From: a virus
Length of the DNA stretch: 24,006 nucleotides
Reading direction: 5' to 3' (one strand)
Virus record (IMG/VR): IMGVR_UViG_3300032607_001308
Location: 1 to 24,006 of that record
Positions 11,267 through 24,006 of the stretch are shown here, in pieces; the stretch's first letter is position 1, and every line of letters begins with the position of its first letter. Under the pieces are notes generated by a model. That model did no database searches, was not told the origin of the DNA, and saw nothing but the letters and a program-made list of their open reading frames with translations. Made by a program: the position numbers and the translations under genes.

Positions 11267-12301
11267 CTAACGACTCGTCAGGGTTGTCGGAAGAGCTGAG
11301 ACACAATCCAGCATGTGTCGGACATTATTGTCGAAGGTTCGGTCTGCTATCGCGGTTCGCGCTTTCACAGCGGCGTCTTGGCGTTTGTCGGGATGTGCGA
11401 GCCACCATCTTAGTTTCTCACCGAACTCTTCGGGGGTTGTGAATGATGGAAGCATTGAAAGAACATGGTCAGATTCTGGGCGTGGTTCTCGGAGGAAGAA
11501 GGTTCCGGTGGCTGCGAGTTCTATTTCTCGAGGCCCCATCGCCCATCCTGTGTCGAAGCCGTCGGCTCCTTCTTTGCGGTAAAGGTTGGCGGAGGCGTTG
11601 GTGGATGAGTAAAGGTCGGCGGCGTCTTCATTGGGGAAGCAGCCTTCGGGTTGGTGGATGAGGAATCGTTGGAGAGGTGAGTGTTGGTCGAGGTCTTGCC
11701 AGTTGCCGGCGAAAGCGACGTCAATGTTGGTCCAGTCGACTTGTTCGAAGAAGGCGATTCGGGATGGGAAGGCGGTTCCTACCCAAGCGAAGTCGGAACG
11801 AAGATCTGTTTGGGGTTCTCGTCGATAGTGGATTTCGGGGTCGTATGCCTGGGGACTGTAGAAGGTGTGGGGTTGTGTTTGGCGGAAGGTGTCGAGGTTG
11901 CTTGGGTCGTTGATGAAGGCGATGTCGGCTCGAGCTGCGATTGGTTGCTGTGATGGGTCTTCGTAGGGGGATTCGGTGAGGATGACGGCGATTCGGATTC
12001 CTCGTGAGCGGATGATGTCGAAGGTTTCGGGTGGTACCAGGAAGGCGGAGGTGATGACGACGAGGTCGGGCCAGAAGTCGAAGCAGGTGGCTCGGAGTTG
12101 CTCACCAACCATTCGAGCGGCCATGTGGGCTTTCTCTAGTTCAGGGACTTTGCCTCTGATGGCGTTTTCGCTGAAGTTGATTCGGTCGGCGAGGTTGAAG
12201 TTTTGGGTTTGGTTGCCGGTTCGTCGGAAGGCTTTGAGCCATCCGTTGTGGACGTCTGCGACGGAGAATGCTGGGCCGGGTTCTACTGTCAGGATTCGCA
12301 C
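11267..12301 (-). CDS. CgeB-like glycosyltransferase (GT-B type)
   Basis: This 344-residue protein looks like a GT-B glycosyltransferase of the CgeB / Glyco_trans_1_2 group. The N-terminal half alternates strands and helices (W-P-D-L-V-V-I-T-S near 77-85, R-I-A-V-I-L-T-E-S near 102-110). The C-terminal half holds the nucleotide-sugar site, with G-P-R-E-I-E-L-A-A-T-G-T-F-F-L (about 258-272), where a Glu contacts the donor, and then T-P-E-E-F-G-E-K-L and a closing basic helix. It transfers a sugar from an NDP donor to an unknown acceptor. The start is GTG at 12301, directly after the upstream TAA. It lies between a terminator-like gene and the major tail gene, so a virion tail protein is a plausible substrate. 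Confidence 0.75.
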   Translation of the reverse strand: MRILTVEPGPAFSVADVHNGWLKAFRRTGNQTQNFNLADRINFSENAIRGKVPELEKAHMAARMVGEQLRATCFDFWPDLVVITSAFLVPPETFDIIRSRGIRIAVILTESPYEDPSQQPIAARADIAFINDPSNLDTFRQTQPHTFYSPQAYDPEIHYRREPQTDLRSDFAWVGTAFPSRIAFFEQVDWTNIDVAFAGNWQDLDQHSPLQRFLIHQPEGCFPNEDAADLYSSTNASANLYRKEGADGFDTGWAMGPREIELAATGTFFLREPRPESDHVLSMLPSFTTPEEFGEKLRWWLAHPDKRQDAAVKARTAIADRTFDNNVRHMLDCVSALPTTLTSR

Positions 12302-12697
12302 TTAGCCGAGAACCTCAATGTTCACTTCGACACCCAAATATTCGATGCCGCCGATACTGAAGGTTCCGGGGTTATTCCATGAGGTGACGCGTGCCGAGTC
12401 GCAGGATCCGTTGAGGGTGGGGTTGGCGTCGACTACGTAGTACACGGAGTCGGTGCCTTGTCCAAGGAAATCGTCGAGGCGTTGCTGTCCAAGTTGATCG
12501 TCTGCCCTGGTGAGCATGACAAGGACGCCATAGTTGACAGACATTCCCTCATTGAAGTCGGCGTCGTATTGGCCGGTTCCAAGAGAAACAACAGCTGCTG
12601 GCGGTTGAATCGTTGAGGGGATCCATTCGTAGATTCGAAGGTTGTTGACGTTTTGGAGGGTATCGCTGATGCCTGCGCGTACTGATGCCAGGTTCAT
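12302..12697 (-). CDS. Tail terminator-like protein
   Basis: This 131-residue protein begins with a helix (S-V-R-A-G-I-S-D-T-L), then an I-Q-P-P-A-A-V-V-S-L strand (about 30-39), a G-V-L-V-M-L-T-R strand (about 57-64), a D-D-Q-L-G-Q-Q-R-L-D-D-F-L helix and a final Y-L-G-V-E-V-N-I-E-V strand. This alternation matches the small neck/terminator proteins found between the head-tail connector and major tail protein in siphoviruses. Such proteins cap the tail tube and mate with the head. The start overlaps the connector stop as ATGA. I call it by pattern and place; a head-closure (stopper) protein is the main alternative, and no other stopper candidate is evident. Confidence 0.62.
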   Translation of the reverse strand: MNLASVRAGISDTLQNVNNLRIYEWIPSTIQPPAAVVSLGTGQYDADFNEGMSVNYGVLVMLTRADDQLGQQRLDDFLGQGTDSVYYVVDANPTLNGSCDSARVTSWNNPGTFSIGGIEYLGVEVNIEVLG

Positions 12698-15315: not shown

Positions 15316-15944
15316 AGTTGGTAGTTCCGTGAACGTCGGATCCCAATGTGGATGGTTTTCGGGTCGTCGCCTAGTTCGCCAAGATATCCGAAACGCCAAT
15401 CATCCGCCAACAGATTGGCCGTCAGATCCGCTTCTAACCCTGCCCGGTAGTCGCGTGCCACACCTATGGGGTACAGGCAAGGGTTGAAAGTGAAGAGATG
15501 TGACTGCTGGACGAATCCGTATTTTTGTTTGAAGCGATCAGGTTCGATTGAGTAAATGCCGCCGGCCTGCTGCTCCTCCGGCGACCACGGCTGGCGAAGC
15601 AAAGCAACCTGGGCGAGTTCCGGTTCGTACTCGAGAATCTCAATCATCAGTTCAATGTCGACCACGTCTGGGAAGATGAAGTCGTCTTCGAGGTGAAAGA
15701 CATAGTCGATGTCTTTGTCTAAAGCGTCCCAGCCGGATTGAATGGCACCGGCCAAACCCCGTCGAGGCGTGTTCTTTACAAACTCGAAGCCATCAGGACA
15801 GAAACCTTTTTCTTCGCCTGAGTCGTCCACCAGAATCTTTTGATGCCACGGCCAGTCAAGAGCTACAGCAGCGGACTCGAGGGTGCGTTGCAGATAATCC
15901 CAACGGCCGTCAGTGATGACCATGAGCGCCAGTTTCGGGATCAT
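15312..15944 (-). CDS. Glycosyltransferase, GT-A type
   Basis: This 210-residue protein opens with L-A-L-M-V-I-T-D-G-R-W-D-Y-L-Q-R-T-L, the first strand and helix of a GT-A fold, then ILVDDSGE (about 37-44), a G-L-A-G-A-I-Q-S-G-W helix and YVFHLEDDF (81-89), whose L-E-D-D is the metal-binding acid cluster. It ends with a Gly/Arg-rich strand. It is a short, single-domain enzyme. The ATG at 15944 is chosen because it overlaps the upstream stop as ATGA; a longer start nine codons earlier lies inside the previous gene. The acceptor is unknown; it probably acts in sequence with its coupled neighbours. Confidence 0.78.
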   Translation of the reverse strand: MIPKLALMVITDGRWDYLQRTLESAAVALDWPWHQKILVDDSGEEKGFCPDGFEFVKNTPRRGLAGAIQSGWDALDKDIDYVFHLEDDFIFPDVVDIELMIEILEYEPELAQVALLRQPWSPEEQQAGGIYSIEPDRFKQKYGFVQQSHLFTFNPCLYPIGVARDYRAGLEADLTANLLADDWRFGYLGELGDDPKTIHIGIRRSRNYQL

Positions 15945-17368
15945 TGAACCTGCACCCCATGTCTCGCCCAACGGCGCATGAAAGCGGCCTTGTCTTTGGC
16001 AAGCTGCTGCTGCATCACTGGGTCTTCCCAGTTGCCAGTCTTCGAGCCTCCGTCGATGTGTTCCACTGTGGTTTGGGTTGCCATGCCATACCAGGCGCCG
16101 GCCATGTCAACAGAGAGGACGAGGTCGTTGTCTCCGAACCACCATTTGCAGTCTTCGGGGAAACGCCAGCCTTCTTGGAACCATTCCGACTTCACCATGA
16201 AAGCGAAGCCGGCGAGGCCGCCGGTTCCGTCATAGCGGTCGGCACAGATGCCGTGGAGTTGGACCACGGTTTCCACTGTTTCTCGGCCGTCATAGTTCGG
16301 ACAAATCGCCACCATCTGATGGTCGGAACGTAACCCTGCCGCCATCGTCGAAATGAACTTGTCACCGATGACGATGTCGTTGTTGAGGAAAGCGATGTTG
16401 CATTTGTGATGCCGGTTTATCGCCCATGTCGCTCCGACATTCCACATTTCGTGGATACCCATTCCTTCACAATCCATCACCTTGGCGAAGGTTTGAGACC
16501 CCAACCATTTCACGGTTTCAGGGTTGGAGCCGTTGTCGAGGACGAGGATGCCGTCGTGTTCGCCCTGGTCATGCAGCTGCAGTAGGAGCGCCTTCGTCAT
16601 TTTCAGATTGTCTTTGACAGGCACTAGAACAAAGTTTTTTGTAGGCACAAGTTCGGGCGGTACTTGCGGCCAGAAGTCTCGAGTGGTCAGTGTCCGCTTT
16701 TTGATGTGGCCGACTTCGATGGTGGTGTCGACAATGCAGGGAAAGCCGACCGCTTGCGCGCGCAGGCTGAACACATAGTCTTCGCCCATGATGTCGTGGA
16801 TTTCTTCACCGGTTTCTGGGTCGGTGTAGTCCCACTGCGCATATTTGAACCAGGGTTGAGCGTCTTTTCGGTTGGCGTCCCAAATCTTTTGGAGGACTGT
16901 TCGGTGGAGGAGGACACATCCGGAGCCGACAGCGCCGACCTGCCAATGCTGCTCAGGTGGGATTGTTGGATATTCGCGTGGTATGGGCGGATCTAATGTT
17001 TCGAAGCCAATGCAGGCCGGAACGATTCGGTGATGAGGATTCCACTTTTCCGCCATGATGAGCGCCGAAAGGATGGGGCGTTCGATTGGGTCGGCGGATT
17101 CCAGCATGACGTCAACGAGGTCGAAACGGAAACGCTGGTCGGTGTCGATAAACAGCAGCCACTCAGCGTCACCCTCGAGGAAGGTTCGGACGACAAAGTT
17201 TCTCTGTTGAGGCAGGTTGGTTCCTGCTTGGGCGATCATCCATCCGGCGTGGTCTAGACAGCCGGCGGTTTTTTGATCCCAAGATTTCAAGGCGAGAAGG
17301 GAGAATACGAAGTCGGGTTCGAAGCTGCCATAGATGATTCCGATGGCGACTTTGCCTTGCTTTGCCAC
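15941..17368 (-). CDS. Two-domain glycosyltransferase (tandem GT-A)
   Basis: This 475-residue protein appears to hold two GT-A domains. Domain 1 (about 1-240) has LLFIDTDQRF (71-80) with a D-x-D, V-G-S-G-C-V-L-L near 147-154, and GEDYVFSLRAQAVGF (195-209) with the E-D catalytic pair. Domain 2 (about 245-475) repeats the theme: ILVLDNGS (274-281), AFLNNDIV (326-333), G-L-A-G-F-A-F-M (384-391), GDNDLVLSV (412-420) and VEHIDGG (435-441). Such a fusion can add two sugars in turn. The start is GTG at 17368 with AAGGAG five bases before it, so this gene begins its own translation and is not coupled to the capsid gene. It heads the sugar cassette. Confidence 0.85.
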   Translation of the reverse strand: MAKQGKVAIGIIYGSFEPDFVFSLLALKSWDQKTAGCLDHAGWMIAQAGTNLPQQRNFVVRTFLEGDAEWLLFIDTDQRFRFDLVDVMLESADPIERPILSALIMAEKWNPHHRIVPACIGFETLDPPIPREYPTIPPEQHWQVGAVGSGCVLLHRTVLQKIWDANRKDAQPWFKYAQWDYTDPETGEEIHDIMGEDYVFSLRAQAVGFPCIVDTTIEVGHIKKRTLTTRDFWPQVPPELVPTKNFVLVPVKDNLKMTKALLLQLHDQGEHDGILVLDNGSNPETVKWLGSQTFAKVMDCEGMGIHEMWNVGATWAINRHHKCNIAFLNNDIVIGDKFISTMAAGLRSDHQMVAICPNYDGRETVETVVQLHGICADRYDGTGGLAGFAFMVKSEWFQEGWRFPEDCKWWFGDNDLVLSVDMAGAWYGMATQTTVEHIDGGSKTGNWEDPVMQQQLAKDKAAFMRRWARHGVQVQ

Positions 17369-21634: not shown

Positions 21635-21771
21635 TCAACATCCTTGAGGAGGCCGGCGATTATGAGGGCGACACCTGGGACACATAAAGCAAGCCAGGGG
21701 AGAGGGGAAAGTGCCAGGCCGATTGTCAAAGAGACAATGCCAACGATGACAGACAACAGAGCGGTTTTCAT
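21631..21771 (-). CDS. 46-aa two-helix membrane protein between terminase and portal
   Basis: This short gene codes for 46 residues: a Lys-Thr start, a hydrophobic helix (about residues 4-20, with V-I-V-G-I-V-S-L-T-I), a Pro-rich turn (S-P-L-P-W), a second helix (about 27-41, with V-P-G-V-A-L-I-I-A-G-L-L) and a charged end (K-D-V-E). Both junctions are ATGA overlaps: with the large-terminase stop at its start, and with the portal ATG at its stop. This is strong support for a real gene despite its size and the lack of its own ribosome site. The sequence predicts a small helical-hairpin membrane protein. I recognise no family; it might be a holin-like, lysis-timing or superinfection-related protein, but its packaging-gene setting gives no direct answer. 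Confidence 0.85.
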   Translation of the reverse strand: MKTALLSVIVGIVSLTIGLALSPLPWLALCVPGVALIIAGLLKDVE

Positions 21772-23393
21772 GCGAGAAGAGCGAACGGGGCGACTGGCTG
21801 TTCGGGGGGCATTTTGGCGACCTCGTCGTAGGAGAGGATTGCGGCTACTAAACCGTCAATCTTGGCATCAATCGTGGGCTTGACAATGGCTGGCAGATCA
21901 GACCTGCCTTTCGACTTTGTCAACAATGCATTCAACGCATAATCGCGCAGTTCTGGCGAACCGTCATGGGTGAAAGATTGTTCGTCGATTGCCTCCAAGA
22001 ATCTATCAATAGCCGGACCCATGCGAGTGGGTCTGTTCGTCAACACTTCAACTACGACAGGTTCACCGAATCGTTCGCCAAACTCTTTTTCCCATGAGTC
22101 AATTTCTTCACGCCAGCCAGGAGGGTCGCAGGCGAAACGGCGAACCTCAAACTGTTCGCGTAGTTCCGTCACTTTCTCTCGGATCTCTTCTCGAGGTACC
22201 CGATAGTCACGGCCGGCGAACTCTGGACGCTTCCAAGCGTTAATAAGGAACAAATGTGGCTTCTCAGTCAGCACCCAGCCGACTAGGACAGTGTCGTCGG
22301 CGTGTTCGCCACGGTCAGAGCCGTCGAAACCGATGGCAATGAACTCTCCGCCAAGCGGATTGAGGTTTGGAGCTGCCAGCGCGTCCCATTTCTCCGGATC
22401 TATGGCACGTTGGTCGCCCTTCCAGCGGAGATTGTGGAAGTAGCGGGCGTTTTCGGCTTTGACTGACCCTGGCGCTCGGATTTCGTGTTCGATCATGCCA
22501 GCAAGGTCCATCCAATCCGCTGCTGGGCCGTACGCCTCCTTCAGAGAGGCCAGTTGGGCGACATCGTCATCCCAATTCGACTCCGTCATCACGCCTTCCC
22601 GGTGATGCCAGCAGAAACCAAAGGATCTTTTCTGCTGCTCCATCAGTTTCTCCGCCTCGTCATACAAATCCTCGGCGACGGAATGCTGACCAGGTTGAAA
22701 CATGGTGGTCGTCGCCAACATCCACGGCTGAGCAATCTTCCGCTTCCGAGTGTTTCGACGGACCATGGCGTGCATCTGCCGCAACTCTGGCAAATAGTAA
22801 AGATGGGGTTCATCGACGATAGCGAAGGACTCTTTGCCGCCATCCTTGGAAGCAGCGCCGGCGCTTGAGGGGCGAACCTCACCCAACCGGCCACCCTTGC
22901 CGATCAGAGTTCGAGTAGATCCGATGTCGAGCTGTGAGAACGACCATTCAGATGGGAACAGTTCGCGCGCGTGCTCGAGCATGGCTTGGACATTGCCGTA
23001 TGTGTTGCCAGTTTGGTTTTCTTCTGTGGCAAGCGGCCTGATGAACGGATAGGTGACAGGTTTTCCCACTGGCTCTCCGTTGGCGTCCCAACCGTCAAAG
23101 CGGACGGGTCCGAGGAGTTCAGCACAAACCATGGCTCCGGCGAACTCTGATTTGGCGCGTCCCTTTGGCATGGAAATGCCGAAGTAGGAGACGACTCGTC
23201 GGCCTTCCTGCTCATGGCCTTTCGGGAACAGTCGATAGCAGTCAAGGATGATCTGGCAGAACTCTTCATCCCAGACCAGCGGTTCGCCTTGGATGTCTCC
23301 TGGTCCGTGGCAAAGATACTTTTCTGTCCAGTCGATGATCTGCCAGCCGAGGGTCGGCCATTCGGTGGGGGCTACGAGTCGGGTGATTGGCAT
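21768..23393 (-). CDS. Terminase large subunit
   Basis: This 541-residue motor packages DNA into the prohead and cuts it. The ATPase half has a Walker A-like loop MPKGRAKSE (75-83; note Ala in place of the usual Gly before Lys-Ser), a Walker B FAIVDEPH (190-197) and the ATTT coupling motif (about 228-231). The nuclease half has FDGSD (356-360), RFACDPPGW (419-427) and TIDAKIDG (507-514), with acids that bind the metal ions. The start at 23393 is fixed by AGGA seven bases before it and by lying seven bases after the small-subunit stop; an upstream extension of 59 codons in this frame lies inside the small-subunit gene and is rejected. Confidence 0.95.
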   Translation of the reverse strand: MPITRLVAPTEWPTLGWQIIDWTEKYLCHGPGDIQGEPLVWDEEFCQIILDCYRLFPKGHEQEGRRVVSYFGISMPKGRAKSEFAGAMVCAELLGPVRFDGWDANGEPVGKPVTYPFIRPLATEENQTGNTYGNVQAMLEHARELFPSEWSFSQLDIGSTRTLIGKGGRLGEVRPSSAGAASKDGGKESFAIVDEPHLYYLPELRQMHAMVRRNTRKRKIAQPWMLATTTMFQPGQHSVAEDLYDEAEKLMEQQKRSFGFCWHHREGVMTESNWDDDVAQLASLKEAYGPAADWMDLAGMIEHEIRAPGSVKAENARYFHNLRWKGDQRAIDPEKWDALAAPNLNPLGGEFIAIGFDGSDRGEHADDTVLVGWVLTEKPHLFLINAWKRPEFAGRDYRVPREEIREKVTELREQFEVRRFACDPPGWREEIDSWEKEFGERFGEPVVVEVLTNRPTRMGPAIDRFLEAIDEQSFTHDGSPELRDYALNALLTKSKGRSDLPAIVKPTIDAKIDGLVAAILSYDEVAKMPPEQPVAPFALLA

Positions 23394-23400
23394 GGAAGTC

Positions 23401-23829
23401 CTAGGCCAGATTGGTTCGGCGGGTTTGGCGACGTTCAGCGATTTCGTCCTGAACAGCAGCGGTCGGGGTTTCAGTGGCGGCCTTTGCTGGCAGCTGCGCC
23501 CATCGTAGGTCTTGCCGGCCTTTCGGCGTGATCCCATACCGATCCAACAGAGGCATGATCTTCGTGACATCGATCAGATCGCACATGACCTTGTCATAGA
23601 GGAAGACGAGCAGTTCGAGTCCTGGCACATCTTCCTTCGAATAGAAGCAAGCCCACCAGGAGTTCATCCATGTCTTCCACGCGCGCTGTCCGTGGGCGGA
23701 AAGTCCCTTTGGGCAGGGTGGGACTTTGCCGTGTTGCCAGCCTTCGTTTTCGGCGAGGTTCCAAGTGAACATCGACTTTCGCTGGTCGACCGCTTCGCCT
23801 GGTGGGAGGGGTTTGGAGCCTGGTGGCAT
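23401..23829 (-). CDS. Terminase small subunit
   Basis: This 142-residue protein has the pattern of small terminases common in actinophages: a polar N-terminus, G-L-S-A-H-G-Q-R-A-W-K-T-W (about 42-54), a helix around E-L-L-V-F-L-Y-D-K-V (about 72-81), G-I-T-P-K-G-R-Q-D-L-R-W (about 99-110) and a charged tail. It recognises the packaging start in phage DNA and hands it to the large subunit. The ATG at 23829 has no strong ribosome site; a later ATG at residue 20 is possible. Its upstream region is the DnaA-box-like array, so the protein's own DNA target may lie there. Confidence 0.85.
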   Translation of the reverse strand: MPPGSKPLPPGEAVDQRKSMFTWNLAENEGWQHGKVPPCPKGLSAHGQRAWKTWMNSWWACFYSKEDVPGLELLVFLYDKVMCDLIDVTKIMPLLDRYGITPKGRQDLRWAQLPAKAATETPTAAVQDEIAERRQTRRTNLA

Positions 23830-23851
23830 TGGCGTCTCGATTCGTTAGAAG

Positions 23852-23996
23852 TTATCCACAGAAGAAGTTTTCCACAGGTGTTTTGTTATCCACACCCGGT
23901 CTTTTTAGTTATTCACATTTCCACAGGGTTGGAGCAGACTTTTCCACAGACTCGGGTTGTCCACAGAGTTATCCACATATCCACAGGTTGTCCACA
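23852..23996 (+). repeat. Array of ten DnaA-box-like 9-mers
   Basis: Ten sites read in the same direction on the plus strand: TTATCCACA at 23852, 23886 and 23969; TTGTCCACA at 23957 and 23988; TTTTCCACA at 23868 and 23940; TTATTCACA at 23909; ATTTCCACA at 23917; ATATCCACA at 23977. Spacing is 8-23 bases. Three match the DnaA-box consensus TTATCCACA exactly; TTGTCCACA is the form used in many high-GC actinobacteria. T-rich spacers lie around 23881-23920. The array fills the whole leader upstream of the small-terminase gene and no convincing coding frame crosses it. No promoter was recognised in it. Confidence 0.93.
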
Positions 23997-24006
23997 GGTT
24001 TGGGAC

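Follow-up and report, generated by a model that had tools for sequence, protein, structure and literature searches.

The stretch of DNA analyzed in this study (hereafter designated as the window) is the 24,006-bp uncultivated virus record IMGVR_UViG_3300032607_001308, which is of a freshwater bacterial virus. It carries the half of a tailed phage that is devoted to packaging and structure, and the genes, including those for the small and large terminases (terS and terL), portal, protease, capsid, tape measure and exonuclease, are all placed on the minus strand. The small terminase-like gene terS (23401–23829, minus strand; 142 amino acids) bears a weak match to PF25673 (Terminase_7), below the cut-off of that family, and terL (21768–23393, minus strand) was assigned to PHROG 9. 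The reading frame of terL stays open to 23570, and the start in the relatives is the M of MPxTRLVPPTEW. A glycosyltransferase-like gene (15941–17368) was found between the capsid and tail genes, and more glycosyltransferase matches occurred in the near-complete genome of a relative, G002. The phage family concerned is of the siphovirus type with a genome of approximately 34.85 kb (34,865 bp in G001 and 34,851 bp in G002) and is referred to as the 35-kb family below.

Upstream of terS, positions 23852–23996 on the plus strand are occupied by a one-way array of ten 9-mers resembling DnaA boxes, which read TGTGGANAA in the sense of terS. Our rescan agreed with the preliminary description in the number of sites, their single orientation and the presence of three perfect copies, and nine of the ten deviate from TTATCCACA by one mismatch at most. 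The motif scan placed the perfect TTATCCACA boxes at 23852–23860 (box 1), 23886–23894 (box 3) and 23969–23977 (box 8). Boxes 2 and 6, both TTTTCCACA, start at 23868 and 23940, respectively, box 4 (TTATTCACA) starts at 23909, and box 5 (ATTTCCACA), which has two mismatches, starts at 23917. Box 7 (TTGTCCACA) starts at 23957, box 9 (ATATCCACA; 23977–23985) has one base in common with box 8, and the outermost box 10 (23988–23996) is again TTGTCCACA. No box was detected on the minus strand within 23830–24006. When these 177 bp were put through 2000 dinucleotide shuffles, the higher of the two strand counts was 0.12 on average and 2 at most, and a chance cluster was thus ruled out. The window-wide total of sites with two or fewer mismatches was chance-like (47 vs. 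43 expected); the exceptional feature is the cluster only, not the total. The array is separated from the start of terS by 22 bp, and the record ends 10 bp beyond it. All of the relatives with TerS of at least 74% identity, in which the sequence covers this interval, retain the array, and their left arrays comprise 7–11 boxes at steps of 8–43 bp. A chimera with a host oriC was also rejected, as the array and the gene order are common to approximately 13 independent contigs.

The 35-kb family carries a WhiB gene, and its TerL relatives are actinobacterial prophages. Judging from these two features, the host is an actinobacterium, resolved to the phylum only. In a prophage search for the host, none of the 50 actinobacterial loci, of which TerL were 27–43% identical, possessed the box cluster (0/50), and the host is thus given only as 'an actinobacterium'. 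The 131 array boxes of 14 relatives fit TT[T/A/G]T[C/T]CACA, with T, A or G but never C at position 3, which corresponds to C-TGTGGA-N-AA-C (N being complementary to T, A or G) in the sense of terS. The E. coli DnaA-box consensus TTWTNCACA and the actinobacterial TTGTCCACA have been documented (PMC5835720; PMC4285127), and the array motif is the union of the two, matched beyond chance. G002 additionally carries TTATACACA and TTTTGCACA. In the alignments of close relatives, variable columns amounted to 9% in the core, 57% at position 3 and 31% in the spacers, the pattern of a 9-mer under purifying selection whose degenerate position is free to vary. Position 3 was A in 25 of the 25 boxes in the arrays of enterobacterial T7-like phages vs. 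A16/T21/G14 in the actinophage arrays (Fisher p = 1.5e-9, boxes within one phage being non-independent), a division along host groups. Thus, the motif follows the preference of the host DnaA. Near actinobacterial dnaA genes, TTTTCCACA, TTATCCACA and TTGTCCACA were all found; for an oriC consensus of 12 actinobacteria, the boxes were too few for statistics. Among the options raised in the preliminary description, DnaA binding receives good support from the motif, its degeneracy, the tracking of the host and the recurrence described below, and we regard the array boxes as very probable sites of the host DnaA.

The array adjoins terS because it adjoins cos. Approximately 13 relatives, together with the alignment to L002/L003, placed the genome end approximately 22 bp past the window edge. 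Many contigs found via TerS or TerL begin exactly at CCCTTCTCGC, 160–260 bp upstream of terS, and those found via Prim-Pol stop exactly at ...CAAC. In five junction-spanning contigs and G001, an identical 10 nt, CCCTGCGCCC, directly precedes CCCTTCTCGC, and in the junction contigs it comes right after ...CAAC. Independent contigs therefore stop at one point, and the short gap between them is filled in the junction contigs, as is typical of a cos end. The simplest reading would be a 10-nt 3' overhang of CCCTGCGCCC at cos, which was presumably removed by end repair during library preparation. In G001 (L047:1-65) and G007, approximately 55 bp on the left of the cos 10-mer are unlike the right end of the family and are possibly a junction with the right end of another phage or an assembly chimera.

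The window record stops before the right end of the genome, and the iterons and Prim-Pol described here are known from the relatives. Once the ends are joined, the order is the Prim-Pol/AAA_25 gene, an HNH-like gene, mixed-orientation boxes with a GGGGGAGGGG run, cos, the one-way array and terS. In the junction-spanning relatives, the right (HNH) end bears 2–6 boxes in both orientations, and the boxes face one another across the joined cos in a locus of approximately 330 bp with about 12–16 boxes. In L053, for instance, the iterons lie at 11496–11663, forward boxes at 12135–12162, reverse boxes at 12185 and 12207, cos at 12240, further reverse boxes at 12282–12431 and terS at 12463. The iterons are 6–8 one-way copies of CGGGACGCG in the last ~170 bp of the Prim-Pol/AAA_25 gene (731 amino acids). 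The joined box locus is 570–745 bp from the iterons (440–900 bp for the individual boxes), with the HNH gene in between; an initiator-like gene with iterons is thus found near the boxes, as expected for an origin. At the codon usage of the genome, CGGGACGCG has a probability of 0.019 per Arg-Asp-Ala (RDA), and one copy is out of frame; the repeats look like a DNA element, likely origin iterons. An inverted repeat, GGGACGCGTCCCCCCCTATAGGGGGACGCG, accompanies the iterons in L053:11496-11670 and likewise in G001–G006, G010, L241 and L244.

All exact copies of TT[ATG]TCCACA in the two near-complete genomes (9/9 in G001 and 11/11 in G002) are no more than 300 bp away from an end. AT enrichment in the array was modest, with a peak that ranked between the 92nd and 98th percentiles in three genomes and reached the 99.9th in the window only, and the GC skew was monotonic and uninformative on the origin. 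In G009/L245, in which Prim-Pol is 70% identical, the right end is kept, the boxes there are gone, and the iterons are replaced by a different repeat. Such a joint loss of the boxes and change of the iterons is what an origin module would show, albeit in a single case. In both the freshwater family and Arthrobacter phages (the ends of L176/L178 and L053:12180-12230), cos is immediately preceded by a box and then a G-rich run, AGGGGGAGGGG, and thus the right-end element may predate the left array.

Similar arrays were found in other viruses. A viral pattern scan that required three one-way boxes yielded at least 120 stretches. In the survey of the genes flanking the array loci, no single known family was dominant, and a large, uncultivated and unrelated marine group, termed marine group 2 (L278–L357 and L057–L136), came to light and accounted for about 25 of the 80 retained loci. 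In this group, the array precedes an AT-hook, terS-like gene of approximately 130 amino acids, for which no isolate relatives were found, followed by TerL. Among loci of this group that were not picked for arrays, the box density was 3.0/kb in the 900 bp upstream vs. 0.03/kb downstream, and 135 of the 167 boxes were oriented with TGTGGA along the gene. Three or more boxes were present in 21 of the 65 loci and none in 34; arrays in about a third of the loci imply quick gain and loss.

Four Arthrobacter phages (Richie, Seahorse, MidnightRain and EvePickles) bear 3–4 boxes or near-boxes between an HNH gene and the right end, and E. coli phages P483 and nasanit are further isolates with similar arrays. 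Among T7-like phages, one-way arrays were found within the direct terminal repeats (DTRs) of Shigella phage A7 (177 bp; L267/L268), Enterobacter phage phiEap-1 (195 bp; L274/L275) and Klebsiella phage ZK1 (292 bp; L276/L277). The boxes of these phages are TTATCCACA, always TGTGGATAA in the gene direction, and reside inside the DTR rather than in the remaining non-coding space of the ends (crude chance product of 0.006). The three arrays are akin to that of the 35-kb family in being one-way, at physical genome ends and in the same orientation to transcription, but differ in that the phages are of the DTR type with their own T7-type replication and have uniformly TTATCCACA boxes. Finally, the single-stranded DNA phage Microvirus mar31 (MZ089777) possesses twelve TGTGGAAAAC repeats, mostly with an 11-bp period, in one intergenic region between the capsid and pilot genes (L270:1900-2080). 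We tentatively propose, at somewhat less than even confidence, that unrelated tailed phages have repeatedly and independently acquired one-way arrays of host-DnaA boxes at their physical genome ends, namely at the cos ends in freshwater actinophages and Arthrobacter phages, in the terminal repeats in several T7-like genera, and upstream of terS in the large marine group. Such arrays would link the joining of the ends, the processing of the junction or packaging to the host initiator; the origin of the 35-kb family would then exist only with the ends joined and be split again by packaging.

In the 35-kb family, a replication origin is the most likely single use of the array, given the iterons, the Prim-Pol/helicase gene, the lack of a recognised polymerase and the facing box clusters. 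We thus favor, as a tentative choice that falls short of being probable, an iteron-plus-DnaA origin that is completed on the joining of the cohesive ends. The preliminary description had listed a phage origin recruiting host DnaA as one of its options, and this option gains support from the iterons in the neighbouring Prim-Pol gene and from the further boxes clustered on the other side of cos. In the linear virion DNA, the element would be split into 7–11 one-way boxes on the left (terS) and 2–6 mixed boxes on the right (HNH). After injection, the 10-nt cohesive ends would join, and the two halves would form the single locus of ~330 bp. DnaA would then nucleate on the joined array, the phage Prim-Pol/AAA protein would act at the iterons, and the two would jointly load the host replisome. 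The last step is proposed because Prim-Pol was recognised in the phage but no replicative polymerase; neither a DNA polymerase other than Prim-Pol nor DnaA was recognised among the phage genes. Against an origin, there is no strong AT-rich unwinding element, the number and spacing of the boxes are variable and loose for oriC, the HNH gene separates the iterons from the boxes, and arrays are found in just a third of the loci of marine group 2. Furthermore, T7-like phages replicate without DnaA and some nevertheless bear terminal arrays, and an origin is therefore not the function in all of the phages. The T7-type terminal arrays point to another use, which may be valid in the 35-kb family as well.

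The proposed origin can be compared with known replicons. P1/pSC101-type plasmids are iteron replicons that combine DnaA boxes with an initiator gene, and the origin of lambda has iterons inside gene O. The phage iterons are likewise inside the Prim-Pol gene with DnaA boxes near, but the boxes are 440–900 bp off, beyond the HNH gene, and flank cos, and the origin activity is putative. A plasmid with Prim-Pol is exemplified by pWTY27 (PMC3583192). The boxes in the oriC of H. pylori are all in one orientation, and the oriC of E. coli has two facing arrays (PMC4285127; PMC10316083). The phage locus shares with bacterial oriC the same 9-mer and its degeneracy, many boxes in ~330 bp, and one-way and facing sub-arrays, and the boxes facing across cos resemble the left and right DnaA regions of E. 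coli (PMC10316083). Unlike bacterial oriC, it is phage-borne, split by cos, away from dnaA, loosely spaced and devoid of a clear AT-rich unwinding element.

DnaA can block RNA polymerase. The array may alternatively serve as a junction marker or roadblock, in which DnaA would coat the one-way boxes in circles or concatemers and stall RNA polymerase or replication forks at the junction to be packaged; terS would thereby be insulated, and the cos/DTR site would be marked for terminase or cleared for it. This idea is in line with the recurrence of the arrays at the physical ends of the genomes of both cos and DTR phages, the placement of the boxes inside the DTR in three phages and the nearly constant TGTGGA along transcription. 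Nevertheless, the right-hand boxes are of mixed orientation and the array is missing in relatives whose TerL is 80% identical and whose cos core is the same, and we consider the roadblock possible but unlikely.

Titration of host DnaA was another of the earlier options. Clusters of the datA type are known to titrate DnaA (PMC5835720). If the phage array were such a sink, phage copies would absorb the host DnaA and halt host initiation, and the ends would merely offer free non-coding space. The many boxes, their variable spacing, their fast gain and loss, and their occurrence in phages of very different replication, a microvirus included, are consistent with titration. However, titration does not predict boxes that lie within DTRs or flank cos on either side, nor an orientation that stays constant, and few sites would be available early in infection. 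Like datA-type titration loci (PMC5835720), the array is a dense DnaA-box cluster, but it differs from datA in being phage-borne, one-way and at a genome end. Altogether, we regard titration as rather unlikely.

An array for packaging was also among the earlier options and is correct as to the location. In lambda cosB, the R sites for terminase are located between cosN and Nu1. The array similarly sits between a real cos and terS, is found in all relatives with TerS of at least 74% identity and is gone at 53–57%, as would be the case if the boxes were cosB-like sites of the small terminase whose likeness to DnaA boxes is convergent. The relatives L018–L020 speak against this: TerL is 80% identical to that of the window, TerS 53–57%, and the ends are of the same kind, but there are only 50–65 bp from the contig end to terS and no boxes, with the same cos core present in L019. 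In lambda-type cosB, the sites would be kept wherever terminase and the cos core are kept, which is not what we found. Thus, the boxes are not an obligatory packaging site, albeit a role with TerS within the array-bearing clade may be retained. The preliminary description had taken retention of the gene order without the boxes as evidence against its proposal; this was seen in the more distant relatives, and it speaks against a function that is obligatory rather than against binding by DnaA. The best-conserved stretch of TerS, LLDRYGITPKGRQDLRWA, which spans two short predicted helices in a low-confidence model (mean pLDDT of 65.6), differs little or not at all between phages with the array and those without it. 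The fold search with this low-confidence TerS model yielded no PDB match. In addition, the same motif occurs beside unrelated TerS proteins, which a shared host factor fits better than terminase does, and its degenerate position tracks the host. Unlike the sites of lambda cosB, the boxes carry the DnaA motif, are absent from close relatives with the same cos core and occur across cos too. We therefore find convergence on terminase sites improbable. Least probable is a DnaA-controlled promoter of the packaging operon, the late promoter of the preliminary description, for which the array is directly upstream of terS but the boxes flank cos on both sides and no sigma-70-like promoter or terminator was found in the cos-terS interval of a relative (actinobacterial promoters may be missed), leaving this option without support from the sequence.

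DnaA-dependent plasmids are textbook cases, and both DnaA-box clusters and iteron origins are already known. Our literature search, with most subscription journals outside its coverage, found no description of a cos-split cluster or of recurrent one-way arrays at phage termini. Among the papers found, ori boxes were predicted in one on a phage (PMC11512268), and terminal arrays were treated in none. Arrays of DnaA sites thus appear not to have been reported before from the packaging ends of phages. Isolates with similar arrays (Richie and Seahorse; P483 and nasanit) make direct testing possible. As the arrays show the DnaA-box preference of the host, they could aid host assignment for uncultivated phages. 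The presence of similar rows at the ends of unrelated viruses suggests an unrecognised use of the host replication switch. If DnaA binds to them, the host initiator would join a step at the phage ends, namely the start of replication after circularisation, the marking of the junction, or the withdrawal of DnaA from the host.
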